Assembly (NCBI GenBank): GCA_007713455.1
Contig: VMRT01000002.1
Span: forward strand, 310,001-374,000
Direction of reading: 5' to 3'
DNA: 64,000 nt
Origin: Pseudomonas sp.
GTDB taxonomy: Bacteria; Pseudomonadota; Gammaproteobacteria; Pseudomonadales; Pseudomonadaceae
The notes beneath the pieces were generated by a model. It had not been told where the DNA came from, made no database searches, and saw only the letters and a list, made by a program, of their open reading frames with translations. Of the stretch, positions 54,802 through 64,000 are shown one piece after another (within the stretch, counting starts at the first letter, position 1; every line of letters starts with the position of its first letter). The position numbers and the translations under genes were made by a program.

Positions 54802-55086
54802 ATGACCAAGTCGGAGTTGATCGAGCGAATCGTCACCCAGCAGGGGCTGCTGTCGTCGAAGGATGTCGAGCTGGCCATCAAGACCATGCTTGAGCAAATG
54901 GCTCAGGCTCTGGCCACTGGCGACCGGATCGAGATCCGCGGCTTCGGCAGTTTCTCCCTGCACTACCGCGCCCCGCGCATCGGCCGCAATCCCAAAACCG
55001 GCCAGTCCGTCAGCCTCGATGGCAAGTTCGTACCGCACTTCAAACCCGGGAAAGAGCTACGCGACAGAGTCAATGAAGAAGAGTAA
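54802..55086 (+). CDS. ihfB: Integration host factor subunit beta
   Basis: A 94-residue DNA-bending protein of the HU/IHF family. [15 protein letters not shown] and [20 protein letters not shown] (the beta-arm with the intercalating proline in RNPKTG) identify IHF-beta rather than HU. AAGGGA precedes the ATG. In pseudomonads ihfB usually follows rpsA and borders the O-antigen locus; here the upstream neighbour is deaD, not rpsA, and a polysaccharide-type cluster follows. Confidence 0.95.
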
Positions 55087-55262: not shown

Positions 55263-56735
55263 ATGTTCTTTCCCGACATTACCCACCACGGCGCCGTTAA
55301 CGGCGTGACCGGCTCGTGCCATCAGCTGCATGCAGACGCGACCAACAGCTATCTCATCGACTGTGGTCTATTCCAGGGGGCGGAAGCTTCAAATGGGGGA
55401 AGAGCAGGGCCGAACAGTCCCGAGATCGACTTTCCACTGGATACGGTGCGGGCGCTGATAGCGACTCACGTCCATATCGATCACGTTGGCCGAATCCCGT
55501 ATCTGCTCGCGGCGGGGTTCAAAGGGCCGATTCTCTGTAGTGAACCCTCTGCCAAGCTGCTGCCCATCGTTCTGGAGGATGCGTTCAAACTAGGCATCAG
55601 CCGCGATCAGAAGCGGGTCGAACGCTATATAGAATTGATCGAGCAACGCATCATCGCGTTGCCTTACAACACCTGGTTCACCCTGCACGAGTCGGCCGCA
55701 CTCGTATGCCGTGTTCGATTGCAGCGGGCTGGGCATATCCTGGGTTCTGCCTATGTCGAATTCGATCTGGAATACCCCGTAACGGGAGAGAAGAAGCGCG
55801 TCGTTTTCTCGGGGGACCTGGGCGCGCGCCATGCCCCGCTTTTGCCCGCACCCAAACCGCCTAGTCGCGCGGACATCCTGGTTATCGAAAGCACCTATGG
55901 CGATCGCCTGCATGAAGATCGTCGTACTCGACGGTTGCGTCTGGAGCGGCTCATCGAGCAGGCCCTGCAAGACAACGGCACCGTGCTTATCCCGGCCTTC
56001 AGCATTGGTCGCACCCAGGACCTGCTCTACGAGCTGGAAGCAATCATTCACAGCAAGACCCACTCGCTCCCGCCTGTAGGAGCGAGCTTGCTCGCGAACA
56101 ATCCTGATGAGACGACAAACCCGACCAACTGGCCTCGCTTGCCCATCATCCTGGACTCCCCCCTGGCCAGCCGCTTCACCGCTGCCTATCGAGAACTGCA
56201 GCCCTTCTGGAATCAGGAAGCGCTCAAGCGTGTACAATCCGGCCGCCGGCCGCTGGGCTTCGAGCAATTGATAAAGGTCGACAGCCATAACGAGCACCTG
56301 CGCATGGTCGAGCACCTTGCGCGTACCGCTCGTCCGGCAATCGTGATCGCCGGTAATGGCATGTGCTCAAGTGGCCGTATCGTCAACTACTTGAAAGCTA
56401 TGCTGGGCGATTTGCGGCACAACGTGCTGTTCGTAGGCTACCAGGCGGCGGGAACGCCGGGTCAGGCCATTCAGACCTATGGTCCGAAGGGGGGCTACGT
56501 TGATATCGAAGGCGAACGGTTGGATATAAGGGCCGGTATCGCGAGTATCGGAGGCTATTCGGCCCATGCCGATCAGGAAGGATTGGTGAGGTTCGTAACA
56601 GGGATGCGCCGCAGGCCATCCCAAATTCGCATTGTTCACGGCGAACAAAATGCAAAACAGGCTTTGGGTAATGAGCTCATTCGTCTTTTCGAAAAAACGG
56701 GTGAAGCGGTAGATATTACTATTCCAAGATGTTAA
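55263..56735 (+). CDS. Beta-CASP metallo-beta-lactamase nuclease with an in-frame REP insertion
   Basis: A 490-residue RNA-processing-exonuclease-like protein. MBL motifs: THVHIDHVGR (HxHxDH), RAGHILGSAY, VFSGDLG; beta-CASP motifs: ESTYGD, AGNGMCSSGRI and the late histidine in GGYSAHADQ. A stretch of about 20 residues before LPIILDSPLASRF (around residues 270-290) is encoded partly by a REP element (56076-56098) and interrupts a region that is compact in the family. The reading frame stays open. Such proteins are widespread beside O-antigen loci in pseudomonads; RNA or DNA target unknown. Confidence 0.9.
   Translation: MFFPDITHHGAVNGVTGSCHQLHADATNSYLIDCGLFQGAEASNGGRAGPNSPEIDFPLDTVRALIATHVHIDHVGRIPYLLAAGFKGPILCSEPSAKLLPIVLEDAFKLGISRDQKRVERYIELIEQRIIALPYNTWFTLHESAALVCRVRLQRAGHILGSAYVEFDLEYPVTGEKKRVVFSGDLGARHAPLLPAPKPPSRADILVIESTYGDRLHEDRRTRRLRLERLIEQALQDNGTVLIPAFSIGRTQDLLYELEAIIHSKTHSLPPVGASLLANNPDETTNPTNWPRLPIILDSPLASRFTAAYRELQPFWNQEALKRVQSGRRPLGFEQLIKVDSHNEHLRMVEHLARTARPAIVIAGNGMCSSGRIVNYLKAMLGDLRHNVLFVGYQAAGTPGQAIQTYGPKGGYVDIEGERLDIRAGIASIGGYSAHADQEGLVRFVTGMRRRPSQIRIVHGEQNAKQALGNELIRLFEKTGEAVDITIPRC
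56076..56098 (+). repeat. Pseudomonad REP element inside a coding sequence
   Basis: GTAGGAGCGAGCTTGCTCGC followed by GAA: the classical pseudomonad REP with GCGAGC/GCTCGC stem. It is translated within VGASLLANN of the beta-CASP nuclease. REPs normally lie between genes. Confidence 0.92.
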
Positions 56736-57079: not shown

Positions 57080-57345
57080 CCTAAGGTGATGCCCGGTGAT
57101 CCACCATGTGTTTACCAAGCGGGAACGCTTGGTCAGGCTGTTCAGATCTTTGGCCCGCAAGGCCGGGGCGGCTTACGTTGATATCGAGGGTGGGTGGTTG
57201 AACGCAAGGGCTGGCATCGCGATCATTTGTGCTTATAGTCCCATGCCAATTTGGATGGATTGATCAGGTTCGTTACCCGGATGCGTCATTGGCTGTCAGA
57301 GGTGCAGATCGTGCATGATGAGGCTCAACCCAAGAGCAGTTTTCT
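57080..57345 (+). pseudogene. Decayed duplicate of the 3' end of the beta-CASP nuclease gene
   Basis: Translation in shifting frames reproduces the C-terminal part of the intact gene: YQAGTLGQAVQIFGPQG against YQAAGTPGQAIQTYGPKG, then YVDIEGGWLNARAGIAIICAYS against YVDIEGERLDIRAGIASIGGYS, then GLIRFVTRMRHWLSEVQIVHDEAQPK against GLVRFVTGMRRRPSQIRIVH. At least two frameshifts and an internal deletion are present. A partial tandem copy or a trace of gene conversion or replacement at the locus boundary. Confidence 0.85.
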
Positions 57346-57445
57346 CAACGATTGCGGGCTCTGCACTTGAAATGATGACCCGAGAGCCTATTAAGGAAGT
57401 GAATTCTTTCCCCTTGAAGCTATATATCTTTGGAAGTTAAGTAAA

Positions 57446-58291
57446 TTGATTTTAATTCGAGCAGTCATTAGGTCAGTGTTATTTATTTTGATTTTTGGCG
57501 GTGTTGGAGGTGTGCATGCCGAGGAACAGTTCTACTTAAAATATAAGAGGATGGTTGATAGCAGCATGTATATTAGACACGCCTTGGGTGGTTACGACGG
57601 CCGAACGTATTTGAATATAGTGGATGCCGCCGAAGTCGGATATAAAAAAGGCTTCAGGCTTTATGAAGTGGACGTTAGCTTTACTTCCGATAAAAAACTT
57701 GTTTTGTCTCATGGTTGGACAAGAAAAGATTATAAAGAAAGGCTCGGTCTTCTTTTTAAGGAGGAGAGCCCTGTTCCAAGTCATGATGGCTTTATGTCAG
57801 AAAAAATGCATGGTCGCTATGCGCCTAGCGATATAGATGATCTAGTGGGATTTATGAAGAATCATCACGATGTCTATGTGATGATAGATATAGGGCGCGC
57901 TACGTATGCAAGAACAAAGAAAATGTATAGTGCACTTGTGAGCAGCGTAAGAGACGATTCTGTATTGAGCCGGTTTATCGTGGGTGGCCACACTACCGAG
58001 GCAATAAGAGCGGTAAAAGAGGTTTATGACTTTAAATTATATAATCTTTACTATGCGGCGAATGTATTAAGAGAGAAAAAACTTGAGAGAGTAGAGGACT
58101 TCATTCGGTGGTGCGAGAAAAATGGAGTTACGAGTGTTTCTATATCTGCTGATCGGTACTCTCTAAAGCTTGCCGAGGCTTTCAATCAAAGCTCATTGAT
58201 TGTTTATGTATTTACGGTCGATGAGGAGGAGCGTGCACGCGATATTTTATTGATGGGAGCTTCTGTCGTGGGTACCAACTTTCTTGAGTAA
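57446..58291 (+). CDS. Secreted GDPD/PLC-like phosphodiesterase
   Basis: A 281-residue protein with a signal peptide (residues 1-24, ending VHA) and a PLC-like TIM-barrel of the glycerophosphodiester phosphodiesterase type. Expected active-site residues: the first histidine in YIRHALGG, Glu and Asp in YEVDVSFTSDKKLVLSHGW, and the second histidine in SHGW. The TTG at 57446 is used as start (GGAAG upstream). AT-rich codon use differs sharply from genes before 56735. It heads the polyol-phosphate cluster and could trim or recycle glycerol-phosphate polymer in the periplasm (inference). Confidence 0.82.
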   Translation: MILIRAVIRSVLFILIFGGVGGVHAEEQFYLKYKRMVDSSMYIRHALGGYDGRTYLNIVDAAEVGYKKGFRLYEVDVSFTSDKKLVLSHGWTRKDYKERLGLLFKEESPVPSHDGFMSEKMHGRYAPSDIDDLVGFMKNHHDVYVMIDIGRATYARTKKMYSALVSSVRDDSVLSRFIVGGHTTEAIRAVKEVYDFKLYNLYYAANVLREKKLERVEDFIRWCEKNGVTSVSISADRYSLKLAEAFNQSSLIVYVFTVDEEERARDILLMGASVVGTNFLE

Positions 58292-59120
58292 TGCTCGGTT
58301 TATACCGAGAGTCAGTAGAGTTTTGCTCAAAATATTCTTGTATGGGCTTTGTGATGTCATGACGCTAAAAAAATATTATGTCTTCTGGTGTGAGGCTTAT
58401 CGCGCCACTTTTAGTGAGCTGCCTACGGTTGGGGTGTTGTTTTGTTTGGGGGCCTTGGCATCTTCTAGGGTGTTCCAGATAGTTGCTTTTTTTTTACCTT
58501 TAAAAATTTTGATTATGTTGAATCATGAGGGGGGGATGAAGTACGAAGAGATTATGCCATATGGTGAACTGTTGAGTGATGCGTTTTTCTTAATGATAGC
58601 GGTTCCTGTTCTTTATGTTTTTTATTTTTCTACAGGTATCGCATATCGCTTTTTTGTAGATCGCTATTGGGTGTGTATAAAAAACGCGCGGGTAAAGGTG
58701 TTTGATCTCGAATATCGAGCTGGGCGATTGTACAAGTTATACAATAGGATGCTCAAAAGTGCTGGAGAACTGGTGCTGATCGTGTTCTCTATCATTCTCG
58801 CTTTAGCACTGAGTTGGCGGCTTGCAATCGTTTTAGTATTGATTCTGTGGGTGAGTTTTTATATTTTTTATTATAAGGCTGTTTTGCGGGATGATCATGC
58901 TCGATTGACCATCTTCAGGGTTAGCCCCAAGCAGTTTGTCGAGTATTCTTCTTCGTTAAGCTTTATTTTATACTTTTTTGTTATTGTTTATGACGTCTGG
59001 TTTTTTGATCTCGGCATCTTTTCTGCGATTTTCCTTGTCCTGCTATCTAGAGTGACCTTTCAATCACTTAACCGGTTGCTGGGTGAAAGTATCGTCCTGG
59101 TTAGGCTTTTCACCGCATGA
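58284..59120 (+). CDS. Polytopic membrane protein of unknown function
   Basis: A 278-residue protein with about five to six hydrophobic helices (near 50-75, 100-125, 168-190, 190-205, 225-245, 245-265). The TTG at 58284 overlaps the previous stop; in-frame ATG codons further in are alternatives, so the start is uncertain. It has the feel of an ABC-exporter transmembrane half without an ATPase, but no motif proves this. AT-rich. Located between the phosphodiesterase and TagF-like genes, so a part in polymer export or assembly is inferred. Confidence 0.65.
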   Translation: MSNARFIPRVSRVLLKIFLYGLCDVMTLKKYYVFWCEAYRATFSELPTVGVLFCLGALASSRVFQIVAFFLPLKILIMLNHEGGMKYEEIMPYGELLSDAFFLMIAVPVLYVFYFSTGIAYRFFVDRYWVCIKNARVKVFDLEYRAGRLYKLYNRMLKSAGELVLIVFSIILALALSWRLAIVLVLILWVSFYIFYYKAVLRDDHARLTIFRVSPKQFVEYSSSLSFILYFFVIVYDVWFFDLGIFSAIFLVLLSRVTFQSLNRLLGESIVLVRLFTA

Positions 59121-59165
59121 TTGGCTCAGAATCCTTGGACCTTAAAGGCCGGAAAAGCGAGCGCT

Positions 59166-60278
59166 ATGAAAATTTTTCTTAGGCAATGGGGCAAGATTTT
59201 TTTGCAAATACTTTTTTTGCCGGTCTTGTATTGGCTTTTTTCTTTTAGGCGTATTAGGGAGGAAGTCGTCATATTTGCTGACTCGAATGGCACATCCGTT
59301 CCTTTCAGCATGAAGGTGTTGCATAGACAGCTAGCTATGCAAAAGGATTTTATTGGGATTGATTTTTTTTATGACTTCAAAAGGGAGTCTCTGTTTAGCC
59401 TGTTCTGTATCCTAGTCAAGTTTATGTGGCTGTATGCAGGGGCGGGGAATATTGTTCTTTGCAACTATTTTCTACCGGTGTCCAGTTGTCGCAAGAAGGA
59501 AGGTACAAAGGTAATCCAATTGTGGCATTCTGGCGGGTTGTTAAAGAAAATTGCAAATGATGCGGTTGACGATATACCCAGTTATTATGTTGGGGATTTG
59601 TTTAGAAACTATGACTGGCTTGTTGTTAGTGCGCCATCCTGTCGGGAAACATTAGCGCGTGCAATGAAAATAGCACAGGAGAAAATTACCGCTCTCGGTA
59701 TGTCTCGGACGGATGCGTATTACGACATGCTGTTTTTGAACTCATGTCGAAAAGAGTTTTACAAGACATACCCTGAAGCGGCTGGTAAGCAAGTCGTTCT
59801 TTGGGCACCAACATTCAGGGGTACGGCTGGGGCTCCTTCACTCGTGGGGGAGGATGCTATTATTGAACTGCAAAGGAGGCTGCCTGAGGAATACTTTCTG
59901 GTATGCAGCGTCCATCCGCATTTGCGGGGCAAGACATATTTACCCAGCTCTTCTATGCCGACCGAATGGCTCTTGGCTTCTACGGATATTTTGATAACTG
60001 ATTATTCTTCAATTTTATTTGATTACTTGATCTTTGAGCGTCCACTAATTCTGTTTGCTCCAGATTTTGATTTGTATCAAAAGGGAAGAGGGTTGTATAT
60101 CGATTATTATTCTCTTCCTGGAGAAGTTGTGCATGATGCAAAAGAATTATTGCCTGCAGTGCAAAGGGCACAAGAAATTATGGAATATGACTCATTGATT
60201 CGGGCTCGGGAGTATTATATGGAATGTTGTGATGGGCAGGCAACAGACAGGCTCTTAGCGCTAATGAGGCGGAGTTAG
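59166..60278 (+). CDS. CDP-glycerol glycerophosphotransferase-family protein 1 (TagB/TagF-like)
   Basis: A 370-residue protein with a hydrophobic, basic N-terminus (about 1-30) for membrane association. The catalytic domain shows the family's histidines in VIQLWHSGGLLKK and CSVHPHLRG, then VVLWAPTFRG and the CDP-binding ILITDYSSILFDYLIFERPLILF. These enzymes transfer glycerol- or ribitol-phosphate from CDP-polyols, building teichoic acids in Gram-positives and some capsules in Gram-negatives. ATG 59166 is chosen; TTG 59121 is the alternative. Two relatives follow. Confidence 0.88.
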   Translation: MKIFLRQWGKIFLQILFLPVLYWLFSFRRIREEVVIFADSNGTSVPFSMKVLHRQLAMQKDFIGIDFFYDFKRESLFSLFCILVKFMWLYAGAGNIVLCNYFLPVSSCRKKEGTKVIQLWHSGGLLKKIANDAVDDIPSYYVGDLFRNYDWLVVSAPSCRETLARAMKIAQEKITALGMSRTDAYYDMLFLNSCRKEFYKTYPEAAGKQVVLWAPTFRGTAGAPSLVGEDAIIELQRRLPEEYFLVCSVHPHLRGKTYLPSSSMPTEWLLASTDILITDYSSILFDYLIFERPLILFAPDFDLYQKGRGLYIDYYSLPGEVVHDAKELLPAVQRAQEIMEYDSLIRAREYYMECCDGQATDRLLALMRRS

Positions 60279-60283
60279 GGGTG

Positions 60284-61504
60284 ATGAGGTATGTCAGCAG
60301 TGTTGTAAGGAACATTAAACGGGGCGTTTTCTGGGAAAGGCTCATGGAGCGACTTTCCCTTGGGATGGCCATTTTTTTTCGCAAAATTATTGCATGCACG
60401 GTTTCGGTCGACTCGCGAAAGGTAATGTTTATGACCTTTCAGAATGAGTATACCTGTAACCCTAAATATATAGCTGAGCAAATTTTAAAAGAGAATTTGA
60501 ATTGCGATATGGTGTGGGCGATTGGTCGCAATACGAACAAGGCCCTTTTTCCAAAGGAAATACGGCTGGTTCGGCGTAATTCGTGGCGTTTTTTCAGAGA
60601 GCTCGCCAGTTCTCGGGTTTGGGTCGATAACGCACTCAACTTCATCTGGCTACGAGTTCCGAAGAAAAAAGAGCAAGTCTATCTGCAGACCTGGCATGGC
60701 TCTATGGGGCTGAAACGAATAGGCAGAGATGATATCAAGAATAAACAGTGGCTTGCGCGAGCCGAGTGGTGTGATCGGGATACGGATTATTGCATCTCGA
60801 ATAGCGAGTTCGAGAATCGCGTATATCGGGAAAGCTACTGGCCGACGGTGAATATCCTGCCCTACGGACATGCGCGCAATGACGTTTTCTTCAGATGTGA
60901 ACCTGGGCATGTTCGCGAACTCAAGGAGAAAATCTGTCGAACCTATGGCTTGTGCTCGGATTACCGTATTGCCCTATATGCGCCGACGTTCCGTGATGAT
61001 AAGGCGCTGGATCATTACGACTTGGACTATAGCCGTGTGCTTGCCGCATTGAAGAAACGCTGGGGTGGGGAGTGGTATTTGTTCGCTCGCTTTCACTTCC
61101 AGAGTAAATCGGCTCAATTCGCCGAGCAGGAAGATAATGTCGTCAATCTCAGCCATTACCCTGACATGCAGGAATTGATGCTGGTGGCCGATGTCGGTAT
61201 TACCGATTATTCAAGCTGGATTTGTGATTATCTGCTGACGCGAATGCCAGGATTCATCTATGCCAGTGATCTGAGTCATTATGGTGATGAGCGTGGCCTG
61301 TATTACCCGCTCGACAGTACACCTTTCCCCGTAGCTACTCGAACCGATGAGTTGGCAAGCCATATCGAGGGCTTCGATGATGCTATATATCAATCGAAGA
61401 TAGAGCTTTTTCTTGCTGATAAGGGATGTGTTGAGGATGGATATGCCAGTGCGCGAGTCGTGGGTAAGATACGTGCATTGCTGGATGAGCCTGAACATGC
61501 CTGA
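60284..61504 (+). CDS. CDP-glycerol glycerophosphotransferase-family protein 2
   Basis: A 406-residue relative of the preceding protein. Catalytic landmarks: YLQTWHGSMGLKRIGRDD, ALYAPTFRDD, FARFHFQSKS and VGITDYSSWICDYLLTRMPGFIYASDL. In the second motif the usual histidine pattern is RFH rather than VHP. GGAG lies about 9 bases before the ATG at 60284. Codon use becomes somewhat more GC-rich in the second half. Probably adds one polyol-phosphate, or forms part of the polymerase set. Confidence 0.88.
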   Translation: MRYVSSVVRNIKRGVFWERLMERLSLGMAIFFRKIIACTVSVDSRKVMFMTFQNEYTCNPKYIAEQILKENLNCDMVWAIGRNTNKALFPKEIRLVRRNSWRFFRELASSRVWVDNALNFIWLRVPKKKEQVYLQTWHGSMGLKRIGRDDIKNKQWLARAEWCDRDTDYCISNSEFENRVYRESYWPTVNILPYGHARNDVFFRCEPGHVRELKEKICRTYGLCSDYRIALYAPTFRDDKALDHYDLDYSRVLAALKKRWGGEWYLFARFHFQSKSAQFAEQEDNVVNLSHYPDMQELMLVADVGITDYSSWICDYLLTRMPGFIYASDLSHYGDERGLYYPLDSTPFPVATRTDELASHIEGFDDAIYQSKIELFLADKGCVEDGYASARVVGKIRALLDEPEHA

Positions 61505-61521
61505 CTGCTGCTGTGTTGGGG

Positions 61522-64000
61522 GTGAGAGTTAATATTATGCTGACAGGTATTCTCCCGTATTCCGATGATGTCGATAGTTTTTTGGCGACGGCCCGCTCAT
61601 TCCTTGAGCAGTGCCTCGCGTGTGAACAGCTTCGACCGATCCATGATTTGCCACGACTGATTGTCGTAAACAGAACGGCCTCGGCTATCGATAACAATGT
61701 CGTTATAGAACTCATGCAGACATACAAGGCTTCGGTAGTCTGCTTGGATGTCGGTGTCATACCCGAGCCGACTGCCTACAATCAGGCAGTGTGTGAGGTT
61801 GCCACGTCTTATGTGATGTTCCTTGGTGCCGGCGATATTTTTCCGGCCAACTTCTTGAGTGGTCTGCGCGACTTTCTCAAAGAGCAAGGCAATGGTTGCG
61901 CCTTCGTTTCCCTTGGTACCCAGTACCGTTCCGCCAAGACCCGTAAATACGAATTCCTGGCTAAACGTAATACGCCCGAGATCGTTGATCTGCTATTGCA
62001 GCCTGAGCTGGTTCCCATTGTGTTTTCGGGCATTCTGGTCAGGCTGGAAGATATTATCGCCACGCCCTTCAATGAGGAATTGGTTTATGACTATGGCCTG
62101 GACTTTCTCTATCGGCTATTGGCCAAGAATCCGCTTTACGCGTTGTGCAAGAGGGTAGTGTGCAAATCCTCTGCTGTGGTGGCACCAGGAGTTGACTCCA
62201 GCAGATACGCCATGGAAGTGACCTGGTACTGGCAGACCTTGCGCGACTTCCTGTTGCCGCTCGTCGAGGAGCATGAGCAACAGGGCGGTATGGTTCCGGC
62301 CTACCTGCAATATGCGGTGTTGTATCAGCTGGGCTGGCGCTTCCAGCTCAGTATCAATGATAAGACAAAGCAGGTAGTCGACGAGCAGGCCCTCGAATAT
62401 TTTGCGTTGTGCTCCCGCTTGTTGAAAACACTGGAGGTCCGTGTTCTGCTGAGTCGGCATCAGCCTTTCCTGATTTCTCAATTATTGCGTTATACCTTTC
62501 TGCATTTGAAGTACGAAGGGAAGTATGCCCCAAAGTACGCGTTCCACGGGGATGAGATATTTTTACAACAGGATGAATATTTACTGCTCAAAGCGAACTC
62601 GCAGAAGGTCGTATTGGAGCTTTTGGAGTTCGACAGGGGCGACCTGATTATCGAGGCTTCGATAGATAATTTTATTGATTTCAGCCGATGCCGGCTATTG
62701 GCCTTCTTTGCCGATGATCCTCTGGAGGTCGAGGAAACCTATCGCTATGCACATACCAAGTATTTTGGTGTGAGTACGCACAAACGCTACACCTTTCGGC
62801 TCCGCATACCCAAAGCCAGGCTGGCTCAGTCGTCTGGCGGGGTTTCGTTTAGGCTGGACTTTGCTGGGAATAGTCTCTTTCCCGCCATTGTGACAAAGCG
62901 CTATACGTCCAGGCTATGCTCCGGATTTCCGGAGTCATACTGGATGTCGGATGGCTATATCTTGCGGTTCTCCGCCGATGAAAAGGTCATCGAAATACAG
63001 AAATCCAGCCTGTTAGGCGGACTTAAGGCGGAGGTTGCTTATCTCCACGGTATGGTGCTGGGGAAATACCGTTCGCGTCGAATGTTCCTGCTGCGTTGTT
63101 TGTACTGGGCAGTCTATCCTTGGTTCCACTTTAAACGGATATGGCTGACCTATGACAAGCTTTACAAGGGGGGGGATTGCGGGGAATATTTCTATAAGTA
63201 TTCCTGTGGGCGTACCGAAAATATTCATCCTGCTTATGTCGTAAATAAGACAGCTCAGGACTACTCCCGCTTGTGTCAGGAGGGGTATCGTCCACTTGTT
63301 TATGGCAGTCTAAGGCAGAAGCTGCATTTTCTTTACGCTGAGGTAGTTTTCACCACTCACGGTGGTGTTACCTCATTCAACTCTTTCTGGGGGAGAGAAA
63401 TCTCTTTCGTTCAAAATCTCTTAAAATTCGATGTGGCCTGTATTCAGCATGGCTTAACAGTTCAGCAATTGGCATCCAATTCCAATAGGCTCTTCAATAA
63501 CATGAAGAGATATTACTGCGCATCAAAATACGAAATTAAAAATCTTGCTCATCCTGTTTATGGTTATGAGAATAAGGATATTCTGCGCCTGACTGGTATC
63601 CCACGTTACGATGGCCTGGTACCTCGTAAGAAGAAGCAGATACTCATTACTCCAACGTGGCGTAGTTATATCGCAATGCCGCCGGTCAAGGGCGAATCAA
63701 GGCCTTACTTTCAGGGTTTCAAAGATACGGAATATTTCAGAGTCTACAATTCTCTTATTTCGGATTCTCGCTTGCTTGATGTAGCCCGAGAGGAAGGGTA
63801 TAAGATAGTATATCTCCTCCATCCTGTCGTGAGTGCGCAACTCGAGGACTTTTTGTGTTCCGATGTTGTTGAGGTTCTGCCTGCGCTGGATATCAACTAT
63901 GAAGAAATTCTGACAGGGTCCAGCCTGATGGTCACGGATTACTCAGGTGTTCAGTTTGATTTTGCCTATATGCGTAAGCCGATAGTCTATTATCATCCGG
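61522..64000 (+). CDS. Large bifunctional protein: GT-A-like domain plus CDP-glycerol glycerophosphotransferase domain (3' end outside window)
   Basis: Open from GTG 61522 (or ATG 61537) to the window end: at least 826 residues. The N-terminal part (about 1-200) resembles a family 2 glycosyltransferase: PTAYNQAVCEVATSYVMFLGAGDIFP. A middle part (about 330-470) is beta-rich (VVLELLEFDRGDLIIEASID). The C-terminal part carries TagF-type motifs: ACIQHGLTVQQ, ILITPTWRSY, YLLHPVVSAQ and LMVTDYSGVQFDFAYMRKPIVYYHP. Joint sugar transferase and polyol-phosphate transferase activity would make a hexose-polyol-phosphate repeat polymerase, as known for some Gram-negative capsule polymerases. Confidence 0.85.
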   Translation, partial: MRVNIMLTGILPYSDDVDSFLATARSFLEQCLACEQLRPIHDLPRLIVVNRTASAIDNNVVIELMQTYKASVVCLDVGVIPEPTAYNQAVCEVATSYVMFLGAGDIFPANFLSGLRDFLKEQGNGCAFVSLGTQYRSAKTRKYEFLAKRNTPEIVDLLLQPELVPIVFSGILVRLEDIIATPFNEELVYDYGLDFLYRLLAKNPLYALCKRVVCKSSAVVAPGVDSSRYAMEVTWYWQTLRDFLLPLVEEHEQQGGMVPAYLQYAVLYQLGWRFQLSINDKTKQVVDEQALEYFALCSRLLKTLEVRVLLSRHQPFLISQLLRYTFLHLKYEGKYAPKYAFHGDEIFLQQDEYLLLKANSQKVVLELLEFDRGDLIIEASIDNFIDFSRCRLLAFFADDPLEVEETYRYAHTKYFGVSTHKRYTFRLRIPKARLAQSSGGVSFRLDFAGNSLFPAIVTKRYTSRLCSGFPESYWMSDGYILRFSADEKVIEIQKSSLLGGLKAEVAYLHGMVLGKYRSRRMFLLRCLYWAVYPWFHFKRIWLTYDKLYKGGDCGEYFYKYSCGRTENIHPAYVVNKTAQDYSRLCQEGYRPLVYGSLRQKLHFLYAEVVFTTHGGVTSFNSFWGREISFVQNLLKFDVACIQHGLTVQQLASNSNRLFNNMKRYYCASKYEIKNLAHPVYGYENKDILRLTGIPRYDGLVPRKKKQILITPTWRSYIAMPPVKGESRPYFQGFKDTEYFRVYNSLISDSRLLDVAREEGYKIVYLLHPVVSAQLEDFLCSDVVEVLPALDINYEEILTGSSLMVTDYSGVQFDFAYMRKPIVYYHP

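Follow-up and report, generated by a model that had tools for sequence, protein, structure and literature searches.

A putative teichoic-acid-like glycan locus at the O-antigen site of a Pseudomonas strain, with a predicted ABC-like membrane protein as candidate exporter

How might a bacterium move a surface polymer across its inner membrane when the locus that makes the polymer contains no recognisable exporter? The question is raised by a gene cluster of Pseudomonas sp. (assembly GCA_007713455.1, genome of 4.71 Mb), which begins near the end of the 64,000-nucleotide stretch that we have analyzed (positions 310,001-374,000 of contig VMRT01000002.1, termed here the window) and continues past it. 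The cluster is an accessory cassette placed at the O-antigen site between ihfB and wbpM; in 43 Pseudomonas strains the O-antigen (OSA) locus is reported to lie "always" between these two genes (PMC13101481). It encodes three TagF-type polyol-phosphotransferases and a protein with six transmembrane (TM) segments, TM278. Drawing in part on a predicted fold, we tentatively propose that TM278 and the proteins related to it, whether stand-alone or fused to a further domain, provide a route of export for O-antigen-type polymers completed in the cytoplasm. The route would resemble that of ATP-binding cassette (ABC) transporters without their ATPase, perhaps being driven by ions, and would stand beside the Wzx/Wzy, Wzm/Wzt and synthase routes; in this strain it would serve a teichoic-acid-like chain.

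The TM278 family occupies sites where an exporter is missing. This emerged from a survey of 56 genomes of the genus, 54 of which have wbpM; the stretch upstream of wbpM was read in 53 of them, G019, at a contig end, being left out. A locus was taken as bounded where its left border was reached, this being either ihfB or a gene for a metallo-beta-lactamase (MBL)-fold exonuclease-like protein, for which 26 of the 53 loci show a match in their first stretch. There were 37 bounded loci, and the other 16 were dropped from the counts. An exporter was defined as a match to a home-made Wzx, Wzm or Wzt profile, or as a protein of 340-600 amino acids (aa) with at least eight hydrophobic segments, and the profile for the TM family was seeded with the proteins of G045, G053, G040 and our own strain. 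The family is present in six of the 37 bounded loci (our own, G045, G053, G040, G016 and G011). None of these six has a recognisable exporter, compared with all 31 of the bounded loci that lack the family (Fisher's test, 4e-7); the Wzx, Wzm and Wzt profiles alone find an exporter in 18 of the 31. The G045 and G016 loci contain a 676/677-aa protein with 8-9 hydrophobic segments, outside the size range of an exporter and not counted as one; that of G045 is Acyl_transf_3/SGNH by Pfam, and that of G016 is alike by eye.

The idea of export came from the first 13 loci (our own and 12 relatives), where an exporter is found in none of the four bounded loci with the TM family and in all eight without it. 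Forty loci were read after the idea arose. Among the 25 of these that are bounded, the corresponding counts are 0/2 and 23/23 (Fisher's test, 0.003). Since the genomes are related, both Fisher values overstate the evidence. The family was found in none of the 16 unbounded loci, eight of which have an exporter.

The cassettes of sister genomes share with ours the flanking MBL gene and wbpM, and in several cases also wbpV/wbpL, but they carry Wzx/Wzy or Wzm/Wzt where our own has TM278. G004, labelled as the same species, has Wzm/Wzt at the O-antigen site; type I secretion-like genes (ABC, HlyD-like and TolC-like, by eye) precede wzm/wzt at this site (L101 10160-14642). What does our own locus offer instead? 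Between the MBL gene and wbpM only TM278 and the wbpL product have at least three hydrophobic segments, with no Wzx and no Wzy-like protein, and profile and Pfam searches found no Wzm/Wzt in the locus. An earlier, sequence-only reading of the window had pointed past its end for wzx/wzy or ABC export genes; that none was found in the locus is something it had not foreseen. The genome has five PF01061 matches, none of which, judged by neighbours, is Wzm-, KpsM- or TagGH-like; we take them to be two YadGH-like, one Ped-type and two in an RbbA/YhhJ- or YbhFSR-like pair. O-polysaccharide clusters that lack Wzx, Wzy and Wzz are already on record for Pseudomonas, and either a route independent of Wzy or the loss of genes from the cluster has been suggested to account for them (PMC6804347). 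From its presence where an exporter is missing, we consider it quite possible, if somewhat short of an even chance, that TM278 exports the polymer.

What kind of protein is TM278? It matches no Pfam family above cut-off (a match to MtrC lies below it) and no NCBIfam family. As a query it found matches in 3 of 398 Pseudomonadaceae genomes (our own, G171 and G276) and 3 of 369 genomes of the class (our own, G537 and G619), and a contig scan with a two-sequence TM278 alignment found two named loci, in Halopseudomonas pertucinogena and Marinobacter litoralis CARE-V18. In both of these, which hold the closest relatives found, the TM278 homologue adjoins tagD-like, LicD and PF04464 genes. The Marinobacter order is wbpM, wbpL, LicD, TM278 homologue, PF04464-GT4, tagD-like, PF04464-GT4, wbpV and MBL gene; our own flanking genes are thus reversed here, around an apparent CDP-glycerol version of the cluster. 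No Wzm-like protein was found among the three PF01061 matches of Marinobacter, again judged by neighbours. Neither a 582-aa member of the family (at E 1e-5) nor TM278 (at E 1e-3) had a match in a plasmid collection.

Longer members of the family, of about 576-605 aa (L066, L067, L068, L141, L033 and L049), occur in other glycan loci and join a TM278-like membrane domain to a C-terminal domain that matches no Pfam family. By eye this C-terminal domain is faintly kinase-like. G016 (L122) has a TM-only member, with a separate APH-type gene (PF01636, E=6.5e-7) two genes downstream. Comparison by hhalign of the C-terminal domain of the members of about 580 aa with the G016 APH protein gave 2.3% over the APH catalytic loop, 60 random open reading frames (ORFs) giving at most 0.7%; this is a hint only of a kinase/APH-like domain in the longer members. 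A phmmer search with TM278 alone matched none of the other family members. A profile made from eight other members (two of them TM-only, and excluding TM278 and the H. pertucinogena homologue) matches TM278 with E=4.8e-11; apart from the members of the profile, nothing else among 2954 ORFs is matched at E up to 10. Between this group of eight and that of TM278 hhalign gives 98.7%, compared with less than 1% for the MsbA of the strain, a Wzm, a Wzx and a type I secretion transporter.

Structure prediction suggests that TM278 is likely to be a type IV ABC-like membrane domain. The best AlphaFold2 model, made with a three-sequence alignment, has six long helices following two shorter N-terminal ones, with a predicted local distance difference test score (pLDDT) of 59 and a predicted TM-score (pTM) of 0.53. 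In Foldseek the best 50 of 369 matches (E up to 10) are type IV ABC transporters, the best having E 0.02 and none falling below 0.001. The best 50 rows from VIA-align comprise 48 ABC transporters (by title or recall), one SbmA, which lacks a nucleotide-binding domain (NBD), and 7ekl, whose title is untelling. Z values reach 14.7 (root-mean-square deviation, rmsd, 4.5; 213 residues aligned), which is near chance level for helical bundles, and the comparison of this model with SbmA (9g3g) gave Z 12.4, rmsd 7.2 and 231 aligned. The matched part of TM278 covers 235 residues, as against 287-306 (median 292) in the 28 of the 50 VIA-align rows that were tabulated. Pfam gave no match to an NBD in TM278 or any other protein of the locus. 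As a predicted type IV ABC-like membrane domain without an NBD, TM278 would resemble the secondary transporters SbmA/BacA, of the SbmA-like peptide transporters (SLiPTs). It differs in having no Pfam family, and SbmA is described as a peptide importer with eight TM segments per protomer (PMC13316013). The same source describes SLiPTs as having neither NBDs nor coupling helices; coupling helices missing in the same way would fit the shorter domain of TM278.

What polymer might be exported? The sequence-only reading had placed three consecutive TagF-like proteins, a glycerophosphodiester phosphodiesterase (GDPD)-like protein and a membrane protein here, and both the ORFs and Pfam agree. By score and by the histidine and TDYS motifs, all three PF04464 proteins belong to the TagF family, with 166.8, 232.1 and 120.1 bits for TagF1, TagF2 and the 928-aa protein (cut-off 22.1); they are the only PF04464 matches in the genome. 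The TagF motifs that had been claimed for each protein are present in TagF1 (WHS/APTFR/TDYSS) and TagF2 (WHG/APTFR/TDYSS), but have diverged in the third (QHG/TPTWR/TDYSG). The nearest solved relative of TagF1 is TarL (8va1, E=3e-23), and that of TagF2 is TagF (3l7i, E=8e-41); the best match of the 928-aa protein is weak, to Cps3D (E=3e-5). Two of the three structure sequences of TagF have a pair of histidines changed; in an alignment TagF2 keeps both of these, and TagF1 and the 928-aa protein have the motif equivalents. We presume these histidines to be catalytic. By eye the N-terminal half of the 928-aa protein had seemed GT2-like, but this was rejected, the hhalign probability being only 7.7%. 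The GDPD-like protein (PF03009, 32.9 bits, cut-off 23.6) has H45, E74-x-D76 and H89. Its first motif, HALGG, deviates from what we take to be the usual HRG. It is a putative periplasmic enzyme of polymer trimming or turnover. A phmmer match to designed SAKe proteins involved one repeated 19-residue stretch only, and was set aside.

The genes that would supply the activated unit lie directly after the third TagF-type gene, starting 325 bp beyond the window, where the sequence-only reading had suggested looking for CDP-polyol synthesis. They encode an IspD/TarI-like cytidylyltransferase and an adjoining CDP-alditol-type reductase. The cytidylyltransferase scores 140.1 bits, and the third match in the genome 36.6; a separate and better ispD is present on C26 (222.9 bits), and the locus enzyme is therefore a paralogue. 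Its closest solved structure, 4jis, is annotated as a ribitol-5-phosphate cytidylyltransferase (E=1.6e-33). The reductase best matches Campylobacter jejuni HS5.17 (8v4g/8v4h, E=5.5e-43), followed by a UDP-glucuronate decarboxylase (5e-31). The adjacent PF01128 and PF01370 genes thus repeat the HS5.18/HS5.17 pairing of C. jejuni HS:5, with extra N-terminal sequence ahead of the Rossmann fold (by eye) and an active site that is largely kept; unlike HS:5, the pair here is at an O-antigen site with TagF-type enzymes. The pneumococcal pairs Mnp1/Mnp2 and AbpA/AbpB are likened to it by description, not sequence, and AbpA is said to act on xylulose-5-phosphate. HS5.17 is reported to convert CDP-6-fructose to CDP-6-glucitol, working with a PF01128 cytidylyltransferase, and Mnp2 to convert CDP-6-fructose to CDP-mannitol (PMC10918830); AbpA, of 240 aa, is described as taking part in CDP-arabinitol synthesis (PMC10118250).

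How well is the active site conserved? In a pairwise alignment at 30% identity the reductase keeps 14 of the 19 residues of HS5.17 named in its paper, including R56, K60, T98, S100, M139, E140, R164, Y167, K171, R208, T227, R233 and Y295. Among those kept are the catalytic Tyr and Lys, the Tyr that stacks on the cytosine and the two arginines at the pyrophosphate; the five that differ are N34, Q196, D212, F226 and L296. In a multiple alignment, where the stacking Tyr (Y295) is not lined up, it keeps 13 of 18, compared with 7-9 in seven Pseudomonadaceae homologues and six in the wbpV-like protein. Respectively, these share 27.9%, 22.6-25.8% and 16.4% identity overall with HS5.17. (The homologue search matched nine genomes, the seven being those other than our own and G185, L040.) Thus the locus pair probably makes a CDP-alditol, pentitol or hexitol, and not CDP-glycerol. 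A tagD gene, also anticipated earlier, was not recognised: PF01467 has three matches in the genome, and by length and neighbours, judged by eye, these resemble coaD, nadD and hldE. With no tagD-like gene recognised in the genome, the unit is therefore probably alditol phosphate rather than glycerol phosphate. The polyol-phosphate surface polymer of the sequence-only reading is supported by gene content, its donor probably being CDP-alditol instead of CDP-glycerol. The check that it proposed, to look past the window for CDP-polyol synthesis, comes out in its favour in the form of this CDP-alditol-type pair.

The cluster can be compared with known teichoic acid and capsule systems. It has three PF04464 enzymes and a TarI-like cytidylyltransferase in common with wall teichoic acid systems (TagF/TarF/TarL, TarI, TagGH), and we take its priming enzyme to belong, like theirs, to the WecA/TagO superfamily. 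Unlike them, it is Gram-negative with WbpL/WbpM priming. A classic wall teichoic acid system was rejected, no TagD or TagGH being recognised in the genome. The sequence-only reading had also named related enzymes in Gram-negative capsules. Such systems are known, the CpsA/CpsC/CpsD of the Actinobacillus group 2 capsule having TagF-type domains and a large polymerase, with CpsA/CpsC homologues reported in Pseudomonas sp. (PMC11666461). Could the product then be a lipid-anchored capsule of group 2 (Kps type)? The best solved match of the 928-aa protein, Cps3D, is from such a system. Nevertheless we consider this very improbable: no KpsM-like permease, or other Kps-type ABC exporter, was recognised by neighbours among the five PF01061 matches, Pfam found no LicD in a search that covered the locus only, and the cluster occupies the O-antigen site of wbpL/wbpM. 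A glycerol teichoic-acid-like O-polysaccharide has been reported for Hafnia alvei 1205 (cited in PMC3210612). The chemistry is a new combination at this site and not a new kind, such polymers being known in Gram-negative bacteria.

TagF-type genes are rare in the genus. PF04464 is above cut-off in seven of 56 genomes, including our own, and absent from the one other genome labelled as the same species. Five of the other six (L043, L044, L042, L046 and L047) carry the gene in an island alongside a glycosyltransferase of about 1175 aa, and the sixth (G007) has it in the O-antigen site with Wzm/Wzt. The islands look like flagellin glycosylation islands. In L043 alone, flagellin and FliD adjoin, as confirmed by Pfam. 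It would be unusual for flagellin glycans to bear polyol phosphate. The presence of TagF-type proteins in such islands is in keeping with a different function, in which single alditol-phosphate side groups are added to a heteroglycan O-antigen and the TagF-type enzymes act as decorating transferases. Single polyol phosphates are known or predicted in O-antigens, as with the ribitol phosphate predicted for Haemophilus parainfluenzae strain 17 (PMC3989065). However, with three different TagF-type proteins and only one GT2 besides the priming enzyme, there would be little glycan for them to decorate, and the search of the locus yielded no Wzy-like protein; we regard this function as unlikely.

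The locus rather appears, with good probability, to make an alditol-phosphate-containing, teichoic-acid-like glycan primed by WbpL. On the basis of gene content and family knowledge, the cytidylyltransferase would join CTP to a keto-sugar phosphate, and the reductase would use NADPH to form CDP-alditol. WbpM, WbpV and WbpL would provide a primer on undecaprenyl phosphate, and the chain would be built on it in the cytoplasm by the GT2 and the three TagF-type enzymes. The later steps we infer. TM278, as an ABC-like protein without an ATPase, would carry the lipid-linked polymer across the inner membrane, the acetyltransferase would decorate it and the secreted GDPD-like enzyme would trim it. A WaaL-type ligase encoded elsewhere would finally join the polymer to lipopolysaccharide; a candidate is encoded at C20:120932 (PF04932, 45.3 bits, cut-off 31.7), with genes of the hldE, msbA and kinase types as neighbours.

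Several observations weigh against this scheme. Four of the six TM-family loci were already in hand when the idea of export arose, and only two are independent. Eight unbounded loci have neither an exporter nor the TM family; seven are on pieces of 2-16 kb and one (G017) extends over 40 kb. Because of G017 and the other unbounded loci without an exporter, we have slightly lowered the likelihood assigned to the new export route. The TM278 model is only moderate, and the other four models have pLDDT 40-50; the TM-family profile has no match to PDB sequences at E up to 10. In H. pertucinogena a Wzm/Wzt-like pair lies 8-9 kb from the TM278 homologue (L083), contrary to a strict rule of replacement. 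In the reductase L replaces the sugar-contact Q196 of HS5.17 and Q replaces D212, so that the sequence does not fix the alditol. In an AlphaFold2 model made without an alignment, the 928-aa protein has an N-terminal half with pLDDT 40 and no fold assignment. Lastly, three Wzx-like (PF01943) proteins are encoded elsewhere in the genome, and could act in trans.

Would a Wzx acting in trans suffice? The polymer could be as described, with TM278 serving as a membrane anchor or organiser of the polymerases, and a Wzx of the neighbouring or another exopolysaccharide (EPS) cluster exporting it. This is possible, though somewhat doubtful. One of the three Wzx-like proteins is about 11 kb beyond wbpM, in an EPS cluster on the opposite strand, and the only PF01943 match of Marinobacter likewise sits in an adjacent EPS cluster. 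Yet if this sufficed it would be odd that the bounded loci have their own exporter in 31/31 cases without the TM family and 0/6 with it. The locus has no Wzy-like protein, and Wzx flips single repeat units and is not known to flip polymers made in the cytoplasm.

The features of the locus are collected in Table 1; we take the names wbpV, wbpL and wbpM for the short-chain dehydrogenase/reductase (SDR), the GT4 and the last gene. The sequence-only reading was right in its abrupt shift to AT-rich DNA, the GC fraction falling from about 0.62 to 0.40-0.51 across the left border, and in the O-antigen site downstream of ihfB, whose wbpM-like gene follows the wbpV- and wbpL-like genes. The cluster is not, however, next to ihfB, the MBL gene and a decayed fragment of a second MBL-fold gene intervening. 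The fragment is likely to be a scar of cassette exchange.

Table 1. Features of the O-antigen site on the scale of the window, continued beyond 64000 for genes past its end
Feature	Position	Strand	Remarks
ihfB	54802..55086	+	Left flank of O-antigen site; ORF, named by eye
MBL-fold (beta-CASP) exonuclease-like gene	55263..56735	+	Pfam Beta-Casp, RMMBL, Lactamase_B; left border in survey
Decayed fragment of second MBL-fold gene (C-terminal part)	about 57113..57352	+	tblastn of MBL protein, E=1e-9, 35% over 86 residues
Secreted GDPD-like phosphodiesterase, 281 aa	57446..58291	+	PF03009; signal-peptide-like N-terminus by eye
TM278, 6-TM protein of unnamed family	58284..59120	+	Candidate exporter
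TagF1, TagF-type polyol-phosphotransferase, 385 aa	59121..60278	+	PF04464
TagF2, TagF-type polyol-phosphotransferase, 407 aa	60281..61504	+	PF04464
Large TagF-type protein, 928 aa	61513..64299	+	Runs past window end; C-terminal PF04464, residues 555-898
IspD/TarI-like cytidylyltransferase	64325-65053 (L004:10325-11053)	+	PF01128; past window
CDP-alditol-type reductase, extended SDR	65054-66133 (L004:11054-12133)	+	PF01370; past window
Left-handed beta-helix (LbH) acetyltransferase-like	66142-66951	+	Past window
Family 2 glycosyltransferase (GT2), TuaG-like	66982-67746	+	Past window; 272.7 bits, below TuaG cut-off of 400
wbpV-like SDR	67810-68805	+	Past window
wbpL-like family 4 glycosyltransferase (GT4)	ends 70867	+	Past window
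wbpM-like	70937-72946	+	Past window

The upstream part of the wbpL-like ORF (L004 15695-15802) has a weak match to IS66 transposase (21.4 bits, below the cut-off of 23.1). The true wbpL start is probably further downstream, and there may be an insertion sequence remnant between wbpV and wbpL. Past wbpM, on the opposite strand and facing the O-antigen locus, is the EPS cluster (L005 4017-17686, minus strand), with Wza, Wzc, Wzx and WcaJ by Pfam, and Wzy-, pyruvyl-transferase- and cellulase-like genes by eye.

Is the cassette still functional? It might have been acquired horizontally and be decaying or inactive, being AT-rich and rare in the genus, with the MBL-gene scar at its left edge and the possible IS66 trace before wbpL. 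We consider this improbable. The reading frames of all 12 genes, GDPD-like through wbpM, are open, with tight spacing as far as wbpV, and motifs are intact in the proteins checked, i.e., the TagF-type, GDPD-like and reductase proteins.

We found no description of this locus, or of such an exporter, in the openly licensed (CC0/CC BY/CC BY-SA) literature, searched mostly at the level of passages. An exporter of the TM278 type would be new. Its family, present where an exporter is missing, offers a single-gene test for the question of clusters that lack Wzx, Wzy and Wzz. Teichoic-acid-like chains at the pseudomonad O-antigen site would widen the surface chemistry met by phages and tailocins.

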